The position numbers were made by a program, and so were the translations under genes. From Lysinibacillus pakistanensis (GTDB lineage: Bacteria > Bacillota > Bacilli > Bacillales_A > Planococcaceae), in contig NZ_CP126101.1 of NCBI RefSeq assembly GCF_030123245.1, positions 2,106,501 through 2,170,500 on the forward strand: a stretch of DNA of 64,000 nt, read 5' to 3'. Shown one piece after another: positions 2,750-52,718 of the stretch. Under the pieces are notes generated by a model, which saw nothing but the letters and a program-made list of their open reading frames with translations, made no database searches and was not told where the DNA came from. Every line of letters starts with the position of its first letter. Within the stretch, counting starts at the first letter, position 1.

Positions 2750-2833
2750 GGAAAGAACATTAAAAGTGACGGATAGACTAGCCAAAAAGATGGATAGAAC
2801 TACAATATTGAAGGATAGTAGTATTGCAGCGGC
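2750..2833. repeat. Degenerate 21-bp tandem repeat (GGATAG family)
   Basis: Four units starting at 2750, 2771, 2792 and 2813, each beginning GGATAG or GGAAAG and commonly carrying AAAGTGA or similar near the end. The same 21-bp family recurs at 24028-24231 and 52650-52718. Confidence 0.65.
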
Positions 2834-2924: not shown

Positions 2925-3506
2925 TTATTTGCCTTCATTAAGCGTAACTGCATGAATGCCCTCAATAAAGGTATTTAATAAGATTGAAAAGCTTTTATTG
3001 AAATCAAGGGGCATACCGAATCCTCCCATCTGTTCAATAGAAGTGAATCCATGTAGAATACTTCGTAATCCTCTGACCATATGAATCGCCATTTCTTCTT
3101 GCAAATTATAGGCATCTAGCACTTGAAGGACTAGTTGTACAACAGATCTTTGGGCCTGCTGTAATTCTTGATCGTTAGAATCAGGAAAGCGAGTGCTAGC
3201 ATCATATAATCCGGGATGCTCTCGAACAAATTGAATATATGCTTTACTAATTGCACGAATGGCATCATCACCTGAACGTCCAACTGCAGCTTGAAGCATA
3301 TATTCATTAAGTTTTTTTACACCTTGAATGGCTAACTTCTGCCTCAATTCATGTAATCCATCAAGATGGTTATACAAAGAAGGCGGTCGCACGTCCAATT
3401 TTTCTGCTAATAGTCCGATTGAAAGTTGGTCCAATCCTTGTTTATCAATTATATCCGTTGCTTTTTTTAAAATAATAGATAATTCTAATTTCATACGACG
3501 GGACAT
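2925..3506 (-). CDS. TetR family regulator with WHG-type C-terminal domain
   Basis: The helix-turn-helix is SIGLLAEKLDVRPPSLYNHL near residues 29-48; the Arg-Pro-Pro-Ser-Leu-Tyr recognition helix and the C-terminal motif LRSILHGFTSIEQMGGFG fit the TetR subgroup with a WHG domain. I take the start MSRRMKLE because GGAG lies 8 bases before it; the in-frame ATG three codons upstream overlaps that ribosome site. It follows the metallo-hydrolase gene by 17 bases on the same strand, and a palindrome before the hydrolase is the likely operator for both. Confidence 0.88.
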   Translation of the reverse strand: MSRRMKLELSIILKKATDIIDKQGLDQLSIGLLAEKLDVRPPSLYNHLDGLHELRQKLAIQGVKKLNEYMLQAAVGRSGDDAIRAISKAYIQFVREHPGLYDASTRFPDSNDQELQQAQRSVVQLVLQVLDAYNLQEEMAIHMVRGLRSILHGFTSIEQMGGFGMPLDFNKSFSILLNTFIEGIHAVTLNEGK

Positions 3507-3523
3507 TATTTTCATCTCCTATT

Positions 3524-8608: not shown

Positions 8609-8656
8609 TCAGTGCACACAAACCTTTATGGTATAATAATAAAAACGGAATAATAA

Positions 8657-8826
8657 GATAGAGGTACAAATTGGATTTTTCGATTTGTTTAAAAGGGAAG
8701 TTCGGTGGGAATCCGACGCTGTCCCGCAACTGTAAATGGGAGCACGTTTCAATGGACCACTGTTACGTATTGTAATGGGAAGGTGAAAGGTGTGATGAAC
8801 ATAAGCCAGGAGACCTGCCTTTATCT
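8657..8826 (+). ncRNA. Cobalamin (B12) riboswitch
   Basis: Diagnostic elements appear in the right order: AAAAGGGAA, GGTGGGAATCCGACGCTGTC, CCGCAACTGTAA, then GTGATGAACATAAGCCAGGA followed by GACCTGCC, the B12 box. GATAG and TTATC at the ends can form P1. Known members repress B12 synthesis, B12 import or cobalt transport genes when adenosylcobalamin binds. Here the next reading frames are a 40-codon gene and a 58-codon gene, neither a known B12 gene. A CCTA/TAGG pair near the first gene's ribosome site could be the expression switch. Confidence 0.95.
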
Positions 8827-8866
8827 AGTACAACCAAAAAACCTACGAGGATAGGGGGTGTTGAGT

Positions 8867-9404: not shown

Positions 9405-10766
9405 ATGAAAAATTTACTTTATAAAAGATTTTGGCGACTGCATTTTTTCGCAGCACTTTTTATTACGCCATTGCTTCTATCACTAACATTGAGTGGAATT
9501 GGTTATCTTTTTTTCACAGATATTGAGAATCAGTTATATGATGATTACTTCTTTGGCAAAAGTCATAAAGAAGAGGTCTTAACAATTGATGAAGCCGTAG
9601 AAAAAGCAGAAGCTGCATTTGCAGGATATTCTACTACTAAAGTGATTATGTTAGAAGAACCATATAATACTCGTTTAACATTATCAAATGGGAAAGAAGA
9701 GAAATACGTATTTTTAGATGACAATAATCAAATGGTAGGCAGTCAGGATGCCAATTACACATTTTCTAATATTATGAGAAATACGCATAGCTCCCTATTT
9801 ATTGGTGGTACATTTGTCAATTATTTAGTAGAACTAGCGGCATGCTGGACGATCTTTTTATTACTGTCAGGACTTTATATGACCTTTAAAGGGAATTTAT
9901 TGAAAAAGCCCAAGTCTGAAAATAAACGACAAAAAAGTAAAAGATACCATGCGCTTGTTGGGACGATCATTACGATTCCAATGGTGATGTTCATTTCTAC
10001 AGGGCTTTTATGGTCTGCCTTTCAAGGTTCGATACTTGCTGATATAGCGTCAGAAAGCCCAACTTTCGGTTACCCATTATTACAGCAAAAGCCACCAACT
10101 TCTGATGTGTCTGAAATTCCATGGGCAACCCGTCAATTAGAAGCACCAACATCTGAGGGTGAACATGCTCAGCATCATGGTGGAGGCGCTGTCCGTTATA
10201 CAAACGACAACCAAATTTCGATCGCTAATCTTGAAAAAGAAATTACTGCCATGAATATCGCCAAGCCTTATTCGATTATTTATCCTTCAAATGCTGAGGG
10301 CATCTATACAGTAGCAAAGGCTAGTAACTCTGGTGTAACAGGTCTCGATGTCAAGCCCACAGAAGAAGCAACTATGTATTTTGATCAATATAGCGGCAAG
10401 TTTATTGATCAAGTTAACTACGAGGATTATGGTATGTTGGCTAAGTTCTTTACATGGGGAATTCCTTTACATGAAGGTCACTTGTTCGGATGGCCAAATA
10501 AGTTATTAAACCTTGTTGTCTGTCTAGCCTTTTTAGCAGTGATTGCATGGGGAATTCGCACATGGATTTTACGGAAGAAAAAAGGGGAGCTATCTGCGCC
10601 ACCACAAATTTCTCATAAAATTTCAATACCTTTCGTTAGTTTCCTCATACTTTTAGGAATTTTAATGCCATTGTTTGGTGCCTCATTGATTGCTGTGGTG
10701 TTGATTGAATTCATAATCTTAGGCTGGCAAACAAAGAAGAAATTAAGAGCAGAAGAGGTTAAATAA
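9405..10766 (+). CDS. PepSY-associated transmembrane protein
   Basis: 453 residues. The layout is that of the PepSY-TM family: an N-terminal helix (about 14-35, starting after KRFWRLHFFAALFI), a first PepSY-like external region with DIENQLYDDYF, a central helix pair (about 140-205), a second external region and C-terminal helices near 360-385 and 410-445. The external loop holds EHAQHHGGGAV, a possible metal-binding cluster. Family members are often linked to iron or siderophore handling; here the upstream riboswitch and downstream iron genes are compatible with a metal role, but that is inference. Confidence 0.82.
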   Translation: MKNLLYKRFWRLHFFAALFITPLLLSLTLSGIGYLFFTDIENQLYDDYFFGKSHKEEVLTIDEAVEKAEAAFAGYSTTKVIMLEEPYNTRLTLSNGKEEKYVFLDDNNQMVGSQDANYTFSNIMRNTHSSLFIGGTFVNYLVELAACWTIFLLLSGLYMTFKGNLLKKPKSENKRQKSKRYHALVGTIITIPMVMFISTGLLWSAFQGSILADIASESPTFGYPLLQQKPPTSDVSEIPWATRQLEAPTSEGEHAQHHGGGAVRYTNDNQISIANLEKEITAMNIAKPYSIIYPSNAEGIYTVAKASNSGVTGLDVKPTEEATMYFDQYSGKFIDQVNYEDYGMLAKFFTWGIPLHEGHLFGWPNKLLNLVVCLAFLAVIAWGIRTWILRKKKGELSAPPQISHKISIPFVSFLILLGILMPLFGASLIAVVLIEFIILGWQTKKKLRAEEVK

Positions 10767-22998: not shown

Positions 22999-23027
22999 GA
23001 ACCTCATTTGTGGAGGTTCTTTTTTTG
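22999..23027 (+). terminator. Terminator of the siderophore ABC operon
   Basis: GAACCTC / GAGGTTC stem with a 7-base loop followed by seven or more T. Confidence 0.85.
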
Positions 23028-23052
23028 TATAATCATGGTAGGAGGTGGAAAA

Positions 23053-24000
23053 ATGATTTTATTAGCACGTCAAACTTCGGAGTTACAGAAAATACTAGAG
23101 GTAATTGTAAGGAGACTGCCTAGAACCTACAATGAGTACTTCAATTATAATGAGCATTTACGACGCATCAAGGCAGGCTTCGCTGGCGAACAGCGCGTTG
23201 ATGCAGAATGGCAGGAATTAGATTTACCATCCCCTCATTATATTCTCCATGATTTTCAAGTGATAAATCACGCCGGTTCTACTCACCAAATGGACACCAT
23301 TTTTCTCTGTCCACACTTTTTACTCATCCTAGAGATTAAAAATATCACAGGAATCCTCTCCTATGATGCATCTTTCGCTCAATTTATAAGGACAACAGCA
23401 GATGGCACTGTGGAAGCAATGTCTGACCCATTTCAGCAACTAGAGCGGCATGTGGCATGGATGAAAAGGCTGATCCAACAAGAACGCCTTAGCTTACCCA
23501 TTCTACATGCCGTAGTGTTGGCAACGAAGAATGGTATCTTGACAGAAGATTTTAAGCGTCAACCTATATTTCATGTGACGGGATTACGCTCCCGAATGCA
23601 AAAATGGTTAGAGCTGCATCAACCCAGCGTAAAGAAAGGAGAAGATCTGTTTCGTTTTGCCAACCTTCTCTTGACTATGCACACAAGGGTTAAAAGAGAG
23701 ATAAATGTACCTCTCAGGGATATTGTGAAAGGAGTGTTATGTACAAATTGTGTGGATGGTCAGCCATTAAGATATCACTACAAAAAATGGCTTTGCCCAA
23801 GGTGTGGATTAGTGGATCGTGATGCTTTGATTAGGACGCTTGAGGACTATCGATTATTAATTGGCACAAAGCTAACAAATAAAAGCTTTTGCGAGTTCTT
23901 TGCCATCGATTCTCCAAACCTGGCATACAAGTTGTTGCAGCAACTACCTCTGAAAGCGGAGGGGATAAAAAGGCATAGAAAGTATTGGATTTTGGATTAG
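23053..24000 (+). CDS. NERD nuclease-related domain protein with zinc ribbon
   Basis: 315 residues; ATG chosen because TAGGAGGTGG stands about 7 bases upstream, whereas a longer frame begins inside the preceding terminator. The NERD core has GFAGEQRVDAEW, HQMDTIFLCPHFLLILEIKN: the Glu, Asp and E-x-K pattern of a restriction-endonuclease-like fold. A C-terminal CTNC...CPRC zinc ribbon (around 236-262) follows, then a short helical segment that may be a DNA-contacting domain. A role in DNA processing is likely; the substrate is unknown. Confidence 0.85.
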   Translation: MILLARQTSELQKILEVIVRRLPRTYNEYFNYNEHLRRIKAGFAGEQRVDAEWQELDLPSPHYILHDFQVINHAGSTHQMDTIFLCPHFLLILEIKNITGILSYDASFAQFIRTTADGTVEAMSDPFQQLERHVAWMKRLIQQERLSLPILHAVVLATKNGILTEDFKRQPIFHVTGLRSRMQKWLELHQPSVKKGEDLFRFANLLLTMHTRVKREINVPLRDIVKGVLCTNCVDGQPLRYHYKKWLCPRCGLVDRDALIRTLEDYRLLIGTKLTNKSFCEFFAIDSPNLAYKLLQQLPLKAEGIKRHRKYWILD

Positions 24001-24017: not shown

Positions 24018-24231
24018 GGATAGAGATGGATAGCGTGTGAGAAGTGGGGGATAGAATTTAAAAAGTAGCGGATAGAGCACGCAAAGTGAAGGATAGAAGT
24101 TTAAAAGTGGGGGAAACGCATAAGTAGTTGGATAGCGCGTGAGAAGTGAAGGATAGAATTTAAAAAGTAGTGGATAGAGCGCGCAAAGTGAAGGATAGAA
24201 CGTTAAAAGTGATGGAAACGCACAAGTAGTT
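24018..24231. repeat. 21-bp tandem repeats in a duplicated 102-bp higher-order unit
   Basis: From 24028, four 21-bp units (24028, 24049, 24070, 24091) plus an 18-bp unit (24112-24129) make 102 bp. The same five-part block repeats at 24130-24231 with only a few changes. Units open GGATAG and typically hold AAAGTGA or AAAGTAG; the 18-bp unit opens GGAAACGCA. The array fills the gap between the NERD gene and the MarR operon and I see no gene within it. Confidence 0.88.
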
Positions 24232-38473: not shown

Positions 38474-39169
38474 ATGCTACAACTTTCAAATGTTTCTTTT
38501 CGTTATATGAAAAAAACAATACTGCAAGACTTGTCTTATTCTTTACCAATTGGACAGATTATTGGCCTAGTTGGAGAAAATGGTAGTGGAAAGTCAACAC
38601 TTTTAAAGGTATTAGCTGGCTTGTTACTTCCATCAAGCGGTGAGGTTTTACTGAATGGTAACCCAGTTACACGTAGAAGTGCCAATCAGATTGCCTACTT
38701 ACCAGATACGGATTTATTTTACGATTTTTATACTGGAGAGCAACTATTTCAGTACTATGCCTCTCAATTCGAGGATTTCTCATATGATAAGGCCTGTATC
38801 GTTGCAGAGTTTTTGCAGGTCGATAAAAAAATGAGATTAAGGCAGCTATCAAAAGGAAACCGTGGTCGTATGAAGATGGCTGCAACACTTGGGCGAGAGG
38901 TCCCGTTTTATTTAATGGATGAGCCGTTCGCTGGGCTTGATCCAATTGTTCGTGAGCAACTCATTAAAGGGCTCATTCAATTTACCGATATGGAACATCA
39001 AACAATTCTTTTATCCACCCATGAGCTATATGAGGTAGAGCCGATTTTAGATCAAATCATTTTATTACAAAATGGCTCGATTATTGCACATGAGGAACTT
39101 GAAAGGATTCGAGATCTGACGAATACGGATGCTGTGCAATGGATGAAGACCTACTATAAGAAAGGATGA
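38474..39169 (+). CDS. ABC transporter ATPase, first subunit
   Basis: 231 residues with Walker A GENGSGKSTLLKVLAGL, a signature variant LSKGNRGRMKMAATLG, Walker B FYLMDEPFAGLDP and switch His in STHELYE. The LSKGNRGR signature departs from the usual LSGGQ, as in YtrB-type ATPases. GAGGTGAGAT precedes the ATG. Four-base overlap region with the next ATPase gene suggests coupled expression. Confidence 0.92.
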   Translation: MLQLSNVSFRYMKKTILQDLSYSLPIGQIIGLVGENGSGKSTLLKVLAGLLLPSSGEVLLNGNPVTRRSANQIAYLPDTDLFYDFYTGEQLFQYYASQFEDFSYDKACIVAEFLQVDKKMRLRQLSKGNRGRMKMAATLGREVPFYLMDEPFAGLDPIVREQLIKGLIQFTDMEHQTILLSTHELYEVEPILDQIILLQNGSIIAHEELERIRDLTNTDAVQWMKTYYKKG

Positions 39170-39174
39170 AATCA

Positions 39175-40098
39175 ATGACAACACAACCAATTGTTCAATT
39201 GCAAAATTTATCAAAAATCATTCGTGGTAAACAATTAATTTCGCAATTGAATATCGATTTATATCCAGGACAAATTACTGGATTTTTAGGACCAAATGGT
39301 GCAGGAAAAACGACGACTATACGTATGATGACAGGGCTTATGCATCCGTCGGAGGGGAAAGTTATCATTGATGGTCTTTCGCTTCAGGAGAATTATGAGG
39401 AGGCAATTAGTAAGGTTGGCGTAATTGTAGAGAACCCTGAAATGTATAAATTTATGACAGGCTATAAAAACTTATTGCATTTTGCAAGAATGCATAAAAA
39501 TGTAACAAAGGATCGTATTCAAGAGGTAGTGAACCAAGTGGGTCTTGAGAAACGTATTCATGAGAAAGTTTCTACATATTCCCTTGGGATGCGTCAACGT
39601 TTAGGATTAGCACAGGCATTGCTTCATCGGCCTAAGTTTTTAATTTTAGATGAGCCAACAAATGGTCTTGATCCAGCAGGTATTCGTGAATTTCGTATGT
39701 ATCTACGGAAAATAGCGACTGAGGATGGTGTCTCTGTTTTTGTTTCTAGTCACCTATTATCTGAAATTGAATTAATGTGTGATCGGGTGGCTGTCATTCA
39801 AAATGGTAAATTAATTGATATTCGTGATATTCATAGTAATAATTCTTCATTTTATTATATTGAGGCTACTCCTAACGAACAAGCTGAATCGCTTCTTCAA
39901 AAGCTTGATATAAATTTTGTTTCAGAAAATAGCGGCTACGTGGTTGAAATACAAAAAGAAGATATTCCATCCTTCATTACAAATTTTGTTAATCAAGGAA
40001 TCCAATTATTCGCTGTTCAACCACATCAAAAAACGTTAGAGGACCAATTCTTAGAAATGACAGGAGGTGGCCAAATTGCTGAAGCTAATTCAAAATGA
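39175..40098 (+). CDS. ABC transporter ATPase, second subunit (BcrA/CcmA-like)
   Basis: 307 residues. Start MTTQPIVQLQ with AAAGGA 8 bases upstream; another in-frame ATG lies three codons earlier. Walker A GPNGAGKTTTIRMMTGL, signature YSLGMRQRLGLAQALL, Walker B FLILDEPTNGLDPAG and switch His VSSHLLSE: the BcrA type common in lantibiotic and bacitracin export. The C-terminal 90 residues form the family's extra domain. It likely energises the permease that begins 22 bases before its end. Confidence 0.93.
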   Translation: MTTQPIVQLQNLSKIIRGKQLISQLNIDLYPGQITGFLGPNGAGKTTTIRMMTGLMHPSEGKVIIDGLSLQENYEEAISKVGVIVENPEMYKFMTGYKNLLHFARMHKNVTKDRIQEVVNQVGLEKRIHEKVSTYSLGMRQRLGLAQALLHRPKFLILDEPTNGLDPAGIREFRMYLRKIATEDGVSVFVSSHLLSEIELMCDRVAVIQNGKLIDIRDIHSNNSSFYYIEATPNEQAESLLQKLDINFVSENSGYVVEIQKEDIPSFITNFVNQGIQLFAVQPHQKTLEDQFLEMTGGGQIAEANSK

Positions 40099-41014
40099 AT
40101 GGATGAAATTGTGGTATAAAAAAGGAACTTGGGCAATGGTCGCATTAGTAATCCTCTTTATTATTGGACCTGGTATTATGTTGAAATACTATGATACAAA
40201 AAATTCAGAGGATATTTCATGGAAAGAAACTGAACAACAAGCCATTAACAACTATAAAGAAATGTTGGCAGGAGATGATCTTACTCCGGCAGATAAAACA
40301 TATTTCGAAGAGCAAATTGCGATATCTGAGTATCGTTTAGCGCATGATGTACCATCTCAAAATGAGGGAAGTCTTGCGAGCTTTATGTCATTTACAAGTA
40401 ATATGCTCAAGTTAGTAACATTATTTACAGTAATTACAGCAGCGAGTATTGTTTCGAGTGAATTCTCAACAGGTACTATTAAAATGCTGTTAACACGCCC
40501 AATGTCGCGGGCAAAAATATTAACCTCCAAATTAATTACAACTTTTATATTTGGTTTGTTTTTATTTGTGGTTAATGTCGTAGTAAGTGTCATAGTAGGA
40601 TTCCTACTATTCGGCAATGGTACAGGAGTCGAGTTAGAGATGGTCAATGGCCAAATAGCCGAAAAAGCGGTATGGAGTGACTTGGGGTATCATTACTTAT
40701 TATCTGGCGGTGACTTTGTGATGTCAACGTTATTTGCCTTTTTAGTAGGTTCAGTTTTCCGCTCAAGTTCTTTAGCTATTGGTTTAACGATGTTCTTGTC
40801 GTTTACAGGTGGAATGATTGTAATGTTCTTAAGTCGGTATGAAATTGTCAAATATATTTGGCTGACTCATTCTAATTTAACGCAATATGAATCAGGAAAT
40901 CCAGTGACAGAAGGTATCACAATGCCATTCTCACTTACTGTTCTGGCGATTTATGCTGTTATTTTCCTTGTAATTAGCTATACGTCCTTTATGAAACGTG
41001 ATGTGACAGCATAA
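40076..41014 (+). CDS. ABC-2 type permease
   Basis: 312 residues from a TTG start with AGGAGG 8 bases upstream. N-terminal IQNEWMKLWYKKGTWAMV is the classic ABC-2 opening helix, followed by a long external loop (about 40-100), then five helices with SSEFSTGTIKMLLTRPMSR, the cytoplasmic coupling segment. Overlaps the end of its ATPase gene. The complex probably exports a peptide antibiotic or lipid-linked compound; the substrate is unknown. Confidence 0.92.
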   Translation: MLKLIQNEWMKLWYKKGTWAMVALVILFIIGPGIMLKYYDTKNSEDISWKETEQQAINNYKEMLAGDDLTPADKTYFEEQIAISEYRLAHDVPSQNEGSLASFMSFTSNMLKLVTLFTVITAASIVSSEFSTGTIKMLLTRPMSRAKILTSKLITTFIFGLFLFVVNVVVSVIVGFLLFGNGTGVELEMVNGQIAEKAVWSDLGYHYLLSGGDFVMSTLFAFLVGSVFRSSSLAIGLTMFLSFTGGMIVMFLSRYEIVKYIWLTHSNLTQYESGNPVTEGITMPFSLTVLAIYAVIFLVISYTSFMKRDVTA

Positions 41015-41017
41015 ATA

Positions 41018-41054
41018 AAACACGGTATGATGTTCATTTTCATACCGTGTTTTT
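41018..41054. terminator. Bidirectional terminator between the ABC operon and spo0M
   Basis: AAACACGGTATGA / TCATACCGTGTTT, 13-bp perfect stem with T-rich tails both ways; serves both converging units. Confidence 0.9.
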
Positions 41055-41059
41055 CTATT

Positions 41060-41833
41060 TTATCCTTTTAAGTGCTTGACAATAATTTGCTGTAGTTTCG
41101 TTTCAATCATTGGTAAATCATGCTTGGTAATTGTGGTTCTGACATAGCTTTCGTCCATATCAAGAGCTTCTGCGAAAAAGCTGCCAATGCCTCTAACTTT
41201 ACGGTCTATTTGCAACAATATTTCCGCCGAATGATTAGATTGTGATAGAAAAACAATTTCTAGCTCATCTAAATGATTTCTATATTGTCCTGTCGGCACA
41301 AATTCAAATTCCTGAATAAATGGATAGTAGCCACGGAATCGAGCTGGTGCCTGTTCACATTCTGCTTCACGCAAACGAAAACCAAGTGCACTTATAGCGT
41401 CTAGGATATGTGTAGCAAGCTCTGTTGGTTGGACACGAATATAATCCTTGTCACTTGGATCCACTGCGTTTTTAATATCAAGGCCTGTTTGTATCCATAC
41501 TTGGGTTTTGCCTGCTGTTATTGGTGTTTCGAATGGTAATGTAAGTGAAATAGGGAAGGTCTTCCTTTCGCCTGCTGCAATAATAAATGGCTCTAATACT
41601 TTAATTTTTTGTAGAGTGGCTACTTCCGTATATTTATTGTCATTTGCTTCTCGAATATAGGTCGTATTGATCGATAAATAAATTGTATCGACTTGCTGTT
41701 CAACCTGCCCACCACGGACTATAATCTCGCCACGCATTATTTCACCAGCTCTGTATGTAGTTTTCTCTAATCGTGTATCAACCGTTGCAGAGCCTACCCC
41801 AATACTTGCAAGTACATTGTTAAAAAACGACAT
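41060..41833 (-). CDS. spo0M: Spo0M sporulation-control protein
   Basis: 257 residues; ATG of MSFFNNVLASIGVGSATVD chosen for GGAGGA about 7 bases upstream. The arrestin-like beta fold of Spo0M is evident: VDTRLEKTTYRAGEIMRGEI, WIQTGLDIKNAVDPSDKDYI and a helical C-terminal ELxxIV...HLKG. In Bacillus it affects early sporulation and cell-division processes. Single-gene unit converging on the ABC operon. The presence of spo0M supports a spore-forming host. Confidence 0.93.
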   Translation of the reverse strand: MSFFNNVLASIGVGSATVDTRLEKTTYRAGEIMRGEIIVRGGQVEQQVDTIYLSINTTYIREANDNKYTEVATLQKIKVLEPFIIAAGERKTFPISLTLPFETPITAGKTQVWIQTGLDIKNAVDPSDKDYIRVQPTELATHILDAISALGFRLREAECEQAPARFRGYYPFIQEFEFVPTGQYRNHLDELEIVFLSQSNHSAEILLQIDRKVRGIGSFFAEALDMDESYVRTTITKHDLPMIETKLQQIIVKHLKG

Positions 41834-41944
41834 CTGTATTCCTCCAATTGACATTAATAATTATACATACGCACATTTTTTGAAAAGGTTTCAACATATA
41901 AAAAGTTTTCGTTATAATGTATGAAAAACAAATGGAGTGTCAGG

Positions 41945-42814
41945 ATGGAAACAGAATGGATAAGAACATTTCTAATTGCTGCAAGAACAGAAAATTTCCG
42001 AGAAACAGCTGAACTACGATTTATTACACAATCTACAGTATCAAAGCATATACAGCATCTTGAAAAGGAATTGCAAACAACGTTATTTGATAGACAGGGA
42101 AAGCAAGTGAGACTAAATCGTTTTGGGGCTTACTTTTTTCAACAGGCAGAAAAAATGATCATGACTGTTGATGAAGGAATACACAATATGGAATCCTTTT
42201 TGCATGGTTATACATCCCATTTAACGATCGGGGTTGCACCTCAAATTGCGAATTCTACTTTACCAGCCATCATCCAAACATTTCAACAGCAGAAACCTTC
42301 CATCCAAATTTCGATTGAGCTATTAAAGTCAAATGAAATAGGAGAGGCGGTTTATACAGGGGAGGTAGATATTGGTTTATCAAAACTAACATCAACTCGA
42401 GAACTTCATACTGTCCTCCTCGCACAAGAATCACTTCAATTAATTGCTCCAATAGCAAAAAAAGAGGCAGATGCACTTACACTTTTGCAGCAGGAAATGA
42501 TTTTAACACATGAATATGCACCTTATTGGCAAGACATCCAGCAAGTATTGCAACAATTTAAACGCTATAAAAGCATGCATATAAATCAAACCGAAGTTAT
42601 TAAAAATTTTGTAAAGCATGGACTTGGCATTGCCTTTTTGCCAAGAAGTATTATTGAGGCTGATTATCAACAGAATTTATTACATAGCTATTCCATACAA
42701 GAATTTTCTCATATTATGTCCAATAGCTACTTTCTAGCAAAATATTTATCAGCAGATATTGAGAGCTTTTTAGCAGTTTGTCATCTAATTTACGCTGATT
42801 TAGTTTGTGACTAG
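41945..42814 (+). CDS. LysR family transcriptional regulator
   Basis: 289 residues; METEWIRTF start with GGAG 7 bases upstream. Helix-turn-helix: FRETAELRFITQSTVSKHIQ (about 20-40), then LEKELQTTLFDRQGKQVRLN. The C-terminal effector domain includes LTIGVAPQIANSTLPAIIQT and GLGIAFLPRSII. Divergent from spo0M with about 110 bases between them. No adjacent metabolic gene identifies the inducer. The next region is a repeat array. Confidence 0.9.
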   Translation: METEWIRTFLIAARTENFRETAELRFITQSTVSKHIQHLEKELQTTLFDRQGKQVRLNRFGAYFFQQAEKMIMTVDEGIHNMESFLHGYTSHLTIGVAPQIANSTLPAIIQTFQQQKPSIQISIELLKSNEIGEAVYTGEVDIGLSKLTSTRELHTVLLAQESLQLIAPIAKKEADALTLLQQEMILTHEYAPYWQDIQQVLQQFKRYKSMHINQTEVIKNFVKHGLGIAFLPRSIIEADYQQNLLHSYSIQEFSHIMSNSYFLAKYLSADIESFLAVCHLIYADLVCD

Positions 42815-43091
42815 AAGTACAAGTTATGAAACTTTGGATAAAAGTATCTCTGTTAAAAACGGGAATCTGCATCAATTATTCATATTTACTCTATATACTG
42901 GTGGTATGTAATCCGCATAAAACAGATAGGAAGACAATCACTTTCATAGCCGTATAAGTTCAGGAAGGGTCCAATCAGGTATCATCAAGCTTTGTACAGT
43001 TCCTGGAGATAGGTGATCCTAAAAAGTGCATGGGCCCAGGGGAGAACCGCAGTCAGGTATAGTGGAAAAACTTCAGGTCCAAGGTAGAATC

Positions 43092-43273
43092 GCTCGGATA
43101 CAGCGGAAAATCGCTCGACCCCAAGAGAGAATCGCTCAGGTGTTCCCGAAAATCGCTCGGCCCCAAGAAAGAGCCGCTCAGGTAAAGCCGAAAAACGCTC
43201 AGGTCCAACGGAAAATCGCTCGGTCCCAAGAAAGAACCGCTCAGGTAAAGCCGAAAAATGCTCAGGTCCAAAG
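43092..43273. repeat. 21-bp tandem repeat array (GCTC family)
   Basis: Eight full 21-bp units starting at 43092, 43113, 43134, 43155, 43176, 43197, 43218 and 43239, then a partial one. Units open GCTCGG or GCTCAGG and alternate CCCAAGAAAGA-type and CCGAAAA-type middles, giving a partial higher-order pattern. More degenerate units extend back to about 43030. Because 21 is a multiple of 3, long frames stay open on both strands (43026-43325 plus, 43053-43286 minus), but they have no convincing ribosome site and I do not count them as genes. Confidence 0.85.
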
Positions 43274-43325
43274 TATATTTGGGCAAATGAATATTCTTAT
43301 CAATAAAATAGTAGGTGTTTTATAA

Positions 43326-44063
43326 ATGTATAATTTGATGTCAAAAATAAGCCAAATCATGAGCAATCCTATAACCGAATTTTTAAATGCCTTTGAACAT
43401 GCCCCATTAATGATTGCGATTTTACTTGGCTTAATAGGTGCTTTAGCTCCTTGTCAATTAACTGGTAATATGAGCGCTATCACCTTTTATGGGAATCGTA
43501 CTATTCAAATGAAAAGTAATTGGCAGGAAATTGTGTTTTTTATAATGGGAAAGGTTGTTGTCTTTAGTTTTTTTGGCCTTTTTGCTTGGATCTTTGGTCA
43601 ATCCTTTGAAACGAAAATGACTGTGTATTTTCCAATTTTTCGCCGGGCAATTGGTCCGATTATGCTAATAACGGGCCTTGTGCTTATCGGCATTTTTAAA
43701 TTAAAATTTCTGAATCGAATTTCTTTACTTCTTCCAACAGTGGTGAAAGAAGGGAAAATTGGCTCGCTGCTGATGGGCGCTAGTATTTCCTTAGCCTTTT
43801 GCCCAACAATGTTCGTACTTTTCTTTGTATGGCTAATGCCAACGGTTGCCTCAACTTCGTATGGCTTAGTGCTACCAGCTATTTTTGGTGTCGCAACTTC
43901 TGTGCCGCTTTTGATCATGATGGCACTGATTCATTTCTTTTTTGAAAAACGCGTCATTATGCAATATAGCATGAAAATGGGGAAAGTAATTCAAAATGTG
44001 GCGGGTGTTATTTTAATCATAATAGGCGCAACAGATACCATTACATACTGGGCGCTATACTGA
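43326..44063 (+). CDS. CcdA/DsbD-like or TauE-like membrane protein
   Basis: 245 residues, six helices in two halves. ALLGLIGALAPCQLTGNM-type sequence (PCQLTGN near 42) and FCPTMFVLFFVWLMP (near 158) place a cysteine-proline pair in helices 1 and 4, the arrangement used by CcdA/DsbD thiol-disulphide carriers and seen in UreH/SafE-like proteins. It could pass reducing power or a metal across the membrane. Start has AGGTG 8 bases upstream. A true CcdA fragment lies 190 bases downstream. Confidence 0.78.
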   Translation: MYNLMSKISQIMSNPITEFLNAFEHAPLMIAILLGLIGALAPCQLTGNMSAITFYGNRTIQMKSNWQEIVFFIMGKVVVFSFFGLFAWIFGQSFETKMTVYFPIFRRAIGPIMLITGLVLIGIFKLKFLNRISLLLPTVVKEGKIGSLLMGASISLAFCPTMFVLFFVWLMPTVASTSYGLVLPAIFGVATSVPLLIMMALIHFFFEKRVIMQYSMKMGKVIQNVAGVILIIIGATDTITYWALY

Positions 44064-44253
44064 AGAAAGGATGCTGCCAAACTGTTATTTTATTAGCATT
44101 TGATGCAGGATTTTTTGAATTTTATCTTGTACCTTAATTTCCTATTTTGTTATTTTCAGATTAATTATCGGTTTTTTGTCACCGAAGTATCTGAAGTAAG
44201 AGAAGAGACTAAGTATTAAAAATCGACCAACAGACTATTTCGACTCATCACAA

Positions 44254-45430: not shown

Positions 45431-45686
45431 CTTAATTCAGCAGAAGATTCCCACCTCTATAAGTGTTGAAATGAATGCGATTTTGATTTCTTTTCAGTTG
45501 ATGACCAACCATCTACTGAAATAGCGGAACTCAGTCTAATAACGCCTCGTCCTAAGGCAATTTATCTATACGAAAGCGAAGCGATAGCAACAAATGTTTT
45601 CTGTAGCGAAAGCAAAGCGGCAGCAACAAATGTTTTCTGTAGCGAAAGCAAAGCGGCAGCTACAATTACAGCAAGGCGAAATTGAT
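45431..45686 (+). repeat. Composite intergenic repeat element (copy 3)
   Basis: Same left end (CTTAATTCAGCAGAAGATTC), middle (ACTGAAATAGCGGAACTCAG) and right end (CAAGGCGAAATTGAT) as copy 2. The interior holds three CGAAAGC...AGCGRYAGCAACA units; the last two are spaced 36 bp apart. The 47-bp unit of copy 2 is the reverse complement of this core with about 11 extra bases. No gene is seen in 45213-45703. Confidence 0.75.
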
Positions 45687-51563: not shown

Positions 51564-51578
51564 GATGGAGTGTACGAA

Positions 51579-52595
51579 ATGGATACGATATTACTAATAA
51601 CAATATTAGTCGTTATATTCGCACTTGTGTTCGATTTTATTAACGGCTTCCATGATACAGCCAACGCGATTGCAACTTCTGTATCAACAAGGGCTTTAAA
51701 GCCGCGGACAGCAGTATATATGGCTGCGGTGATGAACTTCGTTGGAGCAATTACTTTTGTTGGGGTTGCCAAAGCACTCACAAAAGATATTGTGGACCCG
51801 TTTAGCTTAAATGCCTATGATGGTGATATTACTGGCTCTGTTGTGATTTTAGCAGCCTTATTATCTGCCATTACATGGAATTTGCTAACATGGTATTTTG
51901 GCATTCCATCGAGTTCGTCTCATACATTAATTGGATCTGTTGCAGGAGCAGCGATTGCCGCAGCGGGATTTGATGTTTTGAACTATGCAGGCTTTATTAA
52001 AATTATTCAAGCACTTATTTTTTCACCATTGCTAGCGTTTGCAGCAGGTTTCCTGATGATGTCATTGTTAAAAGTACTCTTTAAGGATATGAATCTATAT
52101 CGTACGAATAAAGGTTTTCGAACAATGCAAATTGGTACTGCCGCTCTACAATCTTTTACACATGGTACAAATGATGCACAAAAGGCGATGGGTATTATTA
52201 CGCTCGCTTTAATAGCTGGTGGCTTGCATCAGGGCGATGATATTCCTTTTTGGGTACGTTTCGCGGCGGCATGTGCAATGGGTCTTGGTACTTCTGTAGG
52301 TGGTTATAAAATCATCAAAACAGTTGGTGGAAAGATTATGAAAATTCGTCCAGTGAATGGTGTAGCAGCAGATTTAGCTTCTGCATCGATTATCTTTGGG
52401 GCGACATTAATTCATTTACCAGTATCAACAACACATGTGATTTCTTCATCTATCATGGGAGTTGGAACAGCACATCGTGTAAAGGGTGTAAAATGGGGCA
52501 TGGCACGTAAAATCGTGACAACATGGGTCATCACAATGCCAATTTCTGCGGTGATGGCTGGAGCTATTTACTTTATCTTAAGTTTATTTTTCTAA
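51579..52595 (+). CDS. pit: Inorganic phosphate transporter, Pit family
   Basis: 338 residues, ten or more helices. Two family signatures, one per half: FDFINGFHDTANAIATSVST near the start and SFTHGTNDAQKAMGIITLAL in the second half. It imports metal-phosphate complexes driven by protons. ATG chosen with TGGAG 8 bases upstream; an in-frame GTG lies three codons earlier. Last gene of its unit; terminator follows. Confidence 0.95.
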   Translation: MDTILLITILVVIFALVFDFINGFHDTANAIATSVSTRALKPRTAVYMAAVMNFVGAITFVGVAKALTKDIVDPFSLNAYDGDITGSVVILAALLSAITWNLLTWYFGIPSSSSHTLIGSVAGAAIAAAGFDVLNYAGFIKIIQALIFSPLLAFAAGFLMMSLLKVLFKDMNLYRTNKGFRTMQIGTAALQSFTHGTNDAQKAMGIITLALIAGGLHQGDDIPFWVRFAAACAMGLGTSVGGYKIIKTVGGKIMKIRPVNGVAADLASASIIFGATLIHLPVSTTHVISSSIMGVGTAHRVKGVKWGMARKIVTTWVITMPISAVMAGAIYFILSLFF

Positions 52596-52606: not shown

Positions 52607-52637
52607 GAATGCACAATTTGGGTGCATTCTTTTTTTG
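52607..52637 (+). terminator. Terminator of the DUF47-Pit operon
   Basis: GAATGCAC / GTGCATTC, 8-bp perfect stem with 7-base loop and eight T. Confidence 0.9.
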
Positions 52638-52649
52638 TTTGGATTGGAT

Positions 52650-52718
52650 GGATAGAACCATTAAAGTGACGGATAGAATCTTCAAACTGATGGATAGAGA
52701 GATGAAACTGACGGATTG
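52650..52718. repeat. 21-bp tandem repeats (GGATAG family), third site
   Basis: Units at 52650, 52671 and 52692 with a partial unit at 52713; openings GGATAGAA, GGATAGAA, GGATAGAG, and AAAGTGAC or AAACTGAY near the ends. The register is the same as at 24028-24231. It lies directly after a terminator and before the next promoter. Confidence 0.75.

Follow-up and report, generated by a model that had tools for sequence, protein, structure and literature searches.

Intergenic tandem repeats of variable unit number, such as MIRU and STAR, are usually regarded as neutral or as markers for typing. Direct repeats with a spacing of about two helical turns are found in iterons, in the centromere repeats bound by ParR, and in LytTR and RemA sites, all of which are occupied by oligomeric proteins, and group IIC introns sit directly 3′ of intrinsic terminators. 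KOPS, read by FtsK, and SRS, read by SpoIIIE, are short single motifs scattered across the entire chromosome, also within coding DNA, and Ter sites flank the terminus. To our knowledge, polarity relative to replication is found only among such short skewed motifs and among fork traps, where the Ter sites of Tus and RTP are polar relative to fork movement (PMC4287441).

The repeats described here were found in a 64-kb window (the whole stretch of DNA analyzed, positions 2106501–2170500 of the forward strand of a 5,249,694-bp chromosome). They are in kind intergenic tandem repeats, and their replication polarity is the unusual part. We did not meet such arrays in the literature that we searched, which offered partial coverage with few subscription papers, and we make no claim that they are unpublished.

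A 21-bp tandem-repeat family of Lysinibacillus

The array lies between a NERD-domain gene (23008–24000) and a downstream MarR gene. It opens with a partial first unit, GGATAGAGAT (24018–24027, + strand), followed by two tandem 102-bp blocks on the same strand (24028–24129 and 24130–24231), the first of which starts 27 nt past the NERD-domain gene. Each block is laid out as 21+21+21+21+18 bp, as the first-pass annotation had proposed; its description of the duplication as exact holds for length and fails for sequence, because the blocks are identical at 92 of 102 bases. Between the blocks, corresponding units match at 17–20 of 21 positions (17 of 18 for the 18-mer) and neighboring units within a block at 12–16 of 21, bearing out the earlier reading that corresponding units are the closer ones. 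The related genome G004 also carries two blocks at this place, between flanking genes that are 94.5% and 96.2% identical to those of the window. Own and G004 blocks agree at 69/101 to 83/102 positions and the G004 pair at 81/101, where identities involving the first G004 block, 81/101 included, are underestimates because its end was shifted by one base. Our two blocks are closer to each other than any own–G004 pair or the G004 pair and were therefore homogenized, or newly duplicated, after the two lineages separated, in line with the recent block-level event suggested earlier.

This array belongs to a dispersed family (family 1), including the copies already noticed at 2750 and 52650, both on the same strand as the window array. 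We searched the genome with a pattern of slightly over one unit (at most 2 mismatches) and with a two-unit pattern (at most 3), each with its reversed sequence as control. The former matched 102 places (2 for the control) and the latter 73 (0 for the control). The matches form 39 clusters, 32 with a two-unit match; after exclusion of two that are single weak matches in open reading frames (2936539 and 4145505), 37 arrays remain, all between genes as anticipated. Spacing is 21 bp in 82 of 91 cases in our genome and in 542 of 688 in relatives, so that the period, too, extends beyond the window array. The further copies, their intergenic place and this period each go against what the first-pass annotation had named as grounds for its own refutation.

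Among 31 other Lysinibacillus genomes, 26 contain 7 to 629 places and 5 contain 0–3, and 29 genomes of other genera contain 0–3 places each, a background like that of the control. A stricter exact pattern, scanned against 84,980 species with one genome each, returned 38 stretches, all titled Lysinibacillus. These results show that the array family is restricted to Lysinibacillus. A phage or plasmid element was rejected, because one 251-base query against each of these collections gave no match. In the viral_contigs collection, 12 loci were returned; three (L069, L070, L075) have 2–3 unit matches no more than about 1 kb from the contig start, which we take to be host flanks of predicted prophages, and the other nine are single matches within called open reading frames. 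With dispersed intergenic units whose copy number differs between relatives, the family is VNTR-like and resembles MIRU, STAR and BRE repeats. The BRE repeats of Bordetella have longer units, of 75–91 bp, and the part of their description available to us tells of no replication polarity (PMC3110155).

From the distribution of conservation, we divide the unit into a core, AAAGTGAY-GGATAGAA, about 16 bp long, and a free spacer of 5 nt. Across 121 own units, positions 1–6 carry 1.7–1.9 bits (conservation that is partly built in, since units were chosen by a GGATAG pattern), positions 7–8 carry 0.9–1.1 and positions 14–20 carry 0.4–1.6, and spacer positions 9–13, at 0.03–0.14 bits, are nearly random; 418 distinct units of relatives give a similar profile. 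Arrays start with the AAAGTG half in 43 of 113 cases (score 4 or more of 6), and this half follows the last GGATAG less often, in 18 of 113, against a background of 4%. Between ten array pairs of our genome and G004, differences number 15/246 in GGATAG, 41/249 at positions 14–20 and 70/194 in the spacer, part of the spacer excess being unit turnover. Conservation of the core next to a spacer that varies freely is of the kind expected of a protein site and argues for sequence-specific recognition. The proposal of the first-pass annotation that a bound protein would meet the same DNA face each time is not supported, because many arrays of relatives contain units of 18–20 bp (56 of 688 spacings). 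With these exceptions, direct repeats at two helical turns and a conserved core are shared with iterons and ParR-bound repeats; the arrays differ from these, and from LytTR and RemA sites, in being many, dispersed over the chromosome and polar relative to replication.

Three other candidate classes were rejected. CRISPR spacers are about 20–70 bp long, against 5 nt in a 21-bp unit here; coding repeats would have their seven-codon frame disrupted by the 18–20-bp units; and an RNA element is contradicted by the weak DNA folding of either strand (z −1.1 and, for the antisense strand, −2.0, with −7.5 kcal/mol over 204 nt) and by Rfam, which at gathering score has two matches in the window and none at an array.

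Array orientation and the direction of replication

The chromosome has a single DnaA match, at 1078–1278, and a dif-like site at 2732959, with 1 mismatch to the search pattern, which we take to be dif. All 73 two-unit places follow replication, with the + orientation before dif and − after it. Among the places listed for the one-unit pattern, only 4145505 opposes replication; this is the 2-mismatch match inside an open reading frame that was excluded above. The rule is obeyed in two complete genomes of relatives, by 47 of 47 places in G010 (dnaA 1947218, dif 4523967) and by all 100 places listed, of 162, in G018 (dnaA 1804231, dif 4352974); for G020, 3 places of 57 were listed, and for G004 none. 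In relatives as a whole, array direction agrees with positive GC skew in 75 of 76 rows. These rows comprise 35 from named draft genomes and 41 from G010 and G018, with two rows each for L046 and L055, and leave out 5 of 38 named loci in which the array lies near the locus end (L035, L039, L053, L067, L068). With 75% leading-strand terminators as the baseline, the polarity of our own arrays (32/32) has p = 1e-4 and that of the rows in relatives (75/76) p = 8e-9, values to be read with the knowledge that orthologous arrays are not independent.

The arrays that oppose the rule are L044, the array at 4046416 of G014, and one array of a second family, at 384502. At the G014 site (L177, about 10300–10560), + units stand, on our reading of the sequence, directly next to decayed ones that have the expected orientation, which looks like a local inversion inside the array.

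The strand of the arrays tracks the replichores and switches at dif, a likeness to KOPS and SRS; the difference is that these are 21-bp tandem arrays between genes. They extend from 166 kb to 5.117 Mb on the chromosome, and their positions along the ori–dif axis do not depart from an even spread (Kolmogorov–Smirnov p = 0.72 for 37 own arrays and 0.85 for 25 G010 clusters). The higher density toward dif expected of a KOPS- or SRS-like system was not found along this axis, nor was genus-wide presence among the 31 congeners, 5 of which have 0–3 places. The arrays are polar like the Ter sites of fork traps and differ in lying along both replichores; with this spread, Ter-type sites bound to the terminus were rejected.

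The same period and polarity recur in an unrelated sequence. Family 2, represented in the window by an array at 43033–43271 (+ strand; 21-bp units, CGCTCRGG...), has 121 places by a two-unit pattern (78 on + and 43 on −; control 0). Of 100 places listed, 97 follow replication, and the 21 beyond those listed are on the − strand by tally. The three opposing places all belong to the array at 384502–384758, so that by arrays listed 16 of 17 follow the rule. In G004, 7 of 7 listed arrays of this family obey it, with + up to 3161025 and − from 3668153; because dif of that genome is off-center (3450127 of 5508835), the switch tracks dif and not the midpoint. Family 2 by itself is borderline when set against the 75% baseline (16/17, p = 0.05) and reaches 23/24 (p = 0.009) with G004 added. 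A 36-bp intergenic family of the same genome, GCGAAAGC..., is non-polar, with 15 of 25 clusters along replication and 10 against (Fisher p = 3e-5 versus 37/37 for family 1). The region 39016–44136 of the window is inverted and on the other replichore in G004 (L256), which resembles an inversion about the terminus, and array polarity is thereby kept. Replication orientation, the division of the unit into core and spacer, the confinement to a single genus and the polar family at 43033–43271 had all been absent from the first-pass annotation, whose interpretation as a whole is partly supported.

Terminators, flanking genes and turnover

Nearness to terminators, another point raised earlier, is confirmed: in 29 of 37 own arrays and 59 of 76 rows in relatives, a forward intrinsic terminator is present at most 120 nt away on the 5′ side. 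Forward terminators on the 3′ side occur at 6/37 and 12/76; of random windows, 29 of 300 contain one. The count varies with the terminator finder, the two stricter ones giving 19/37 (random windows 9/400) and 18/37 (14/300) and the laxer third 29/37 (29/300), and an excess over random windows is present with all three. The position 3′ of terminators recalls that of group IIC introns, from which the arrays differ in being short direct repeats, with no intron in the arrays read. In the window, the array at 52650–52718 (+) begins 13 nt past the T-tract of the terminator (52608–52637, +) of a PHO4-family gene (51570–52595), directly 3′ of it. For the array at 24028, the third finder detected no 5′ terminator and one on the 3′ side. 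The array at 2750–2818 (+) lies between two genes on the − strand (a TetR-like gene, 2102–2674, and 2925–3515); its orientation is that of replication and opposite to the transcription of both neighbors. The regulator genes that adjoin the window arrays vary from array to array.

Arrays turn over rapidly between relatives. In the gap between crh and clpP, 7 of 24 genomes have an array (one unit match in G021 was discounted as false), and unit number runs from 0 to over 23. Six of the seven were seen between the crh terminator and the clpP terminator. Of the 17 genomes lacking an array, 10 have a gap of 38–84 nt. Long insertions of other, unlike sequence occupy this gap in G011, G001 and G005 (L154, L160 and L155, respectively), and it seems to accept insertions readily. 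The comparison with G004 covers the 15 of 37 own arrays for which both flanks were found there (the 22 others were left out): 13 have a counterpart with changed units, and two, 668753 and 1925918, have none. Five of 31 congeners with 0–3 places, together with 17 of 24 genomes empty at crh–clpP, indicate that the arrays are dispensable, and their dispensability and even spread weigh against an essential function in segregation or at the terminus. In several species (L033, L056, L064, L194, L213) an array adjoins a shared gene set, consisting of open reading frames of 233 and about 505 aa followed, on the opposite strand, by a frame of about 100 aa.

Candidate explanations for the polar arrays

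The polarity implies that either the effect of whatever recognizes the arrays, or the process that spreads them, depends on fork direction. We tentatively prefer the former, and give a probability of roughly 0.4 to the reading that the arrays are tandem sites for a putative protein whose effect depends on fork orientation. A DNA-binding protein, sequence-specific and probably oligomeric, would recognize the core, and an array so occupied may act unequally on machinery arriving from its two sides, letting pass the fork that travels from origin to terminus, along with co-directional transcription, and hindering opposite traffic. What is hindered might be head-on transcripts entering the 3′ ends of leading-strand genes, or forks moving toward the origin. 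An array pointing the wrong way would do harm and hence be lost, the slot behind a terminator would be the place where an array disturbs neither neighbor, and unequal recombination and conversion could drive the turnover in unit number and produce blocks such as the 102-bp pair. A broader version, which we regard as unlikely, is that at least two unrelated 21-bp families behind terminators, from origin to terminus, each with a putative dedicated protein reader, form a distributed system marking direction; if true, the readers would sense or enforce the travel direction of forks, polymerases or translocases.

The orientation could instead be inherited and not selected, if the arrays have no function and spread at the fork by strand-preserving transfer of single-stranded DNA between lagging strands, whether through template switching or through a process like that of an HUH transposase or a group IIC intron that favors terminator hairpins. 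The range from 0 to 629 places among congeners, the coming and going of arrays at crh–clpP and the fast turnover of units all fit such a process, as do the location just 3′ of terminators and the bias at convergent gene pairs, where of 32 cases 13 have a detected terminator on the 5′ side of the array only, 5 on the 3′ side only, 12 on both and 2 on neither. A period and polarity common to two unrelated sequences also speak for it. A neutral array is, however, not expected to keep its core beside a free spacer, and the 36-bp family spreads between genes of the same genome without polarity; functionless spread, the chief alternative, is a possibility that we entertain with some doubt, behind the protein-site reading. 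A fork orientation that is genus-wide and present in two families, beside a non-polar control, points to a direction-dependent effect of the arrays or to strand-specific spread at the fork.

Action at the level of RNA appears improbable. By this account, the head-on transcript of an array is a pyrimidine-rich, poorly folding repeat with C in excess of G that invites Rho-dependent termination and so protects genes on the leading strand against antisense transcription. In family 1 the antisense strand does contain 28% C and 11% G and folds weakly (the z of −2.0 above), and the purine bias of B. subtilis genes is reported to be tied to escape from premature termination (PMC13323073). Yet Rho is not known to need a fixed period of 21 bp or a conserved core; the family 2 consensus, judged by eye, has about as much C as G, so that its antisense strand is not C-rich; and arrays also occur ahead of co-oriented genes (24 of 39 own clusters).

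Last, arrays might arise behind terminators and owe their orientation to transcription alone, most genes being on the leading strand. The gene upstream shares the array's orientation in 35 of 39 own clusters and in 68 of 76 rows from relatives, and the G004 counterpart of the discordant own array at 237053 follows a gene and terminator of its own orientation, which marks the discordant context in our genome as a later change. In 40 tiles of G004, the leading strand has 510 genes and 118 terminator-bearing 3′ ends, against 190 and 39, respectively, on the lagging strand. If arrays merely followed terminators, about a quarter would be expected against replication, whereas in the tiles 23 array clusters follow replication and 1 weak match opposes it; with 39 of 157 terminator-bearing ends lagging, gene direction is insufficient to explain the polarity. 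Arrays whose called neighbors are both on the lagging strand still follow replication, at 2109250 in our genome (window 2750), in L198, at one site shared by L056, L194 and L213, and for family 2 in L243. These lagging-strand terminators and lagging-flanked arrays largely refute transcription as the sole cause, which we rejected as very improbable.

The window contains further intergenic tandem repeats in both orientations, with 47- and 36-bp units of the GCGAAAGC... type, at 1016–1496, 1575–1643 and 45571–45665. A Bacillaceae-1 RNA match (RF01690, 963–1028) overlaps the start of the 47-bp array, and a cobalamin riboswitch is located at 8645–8836 (RF00174, 120.1 bits).
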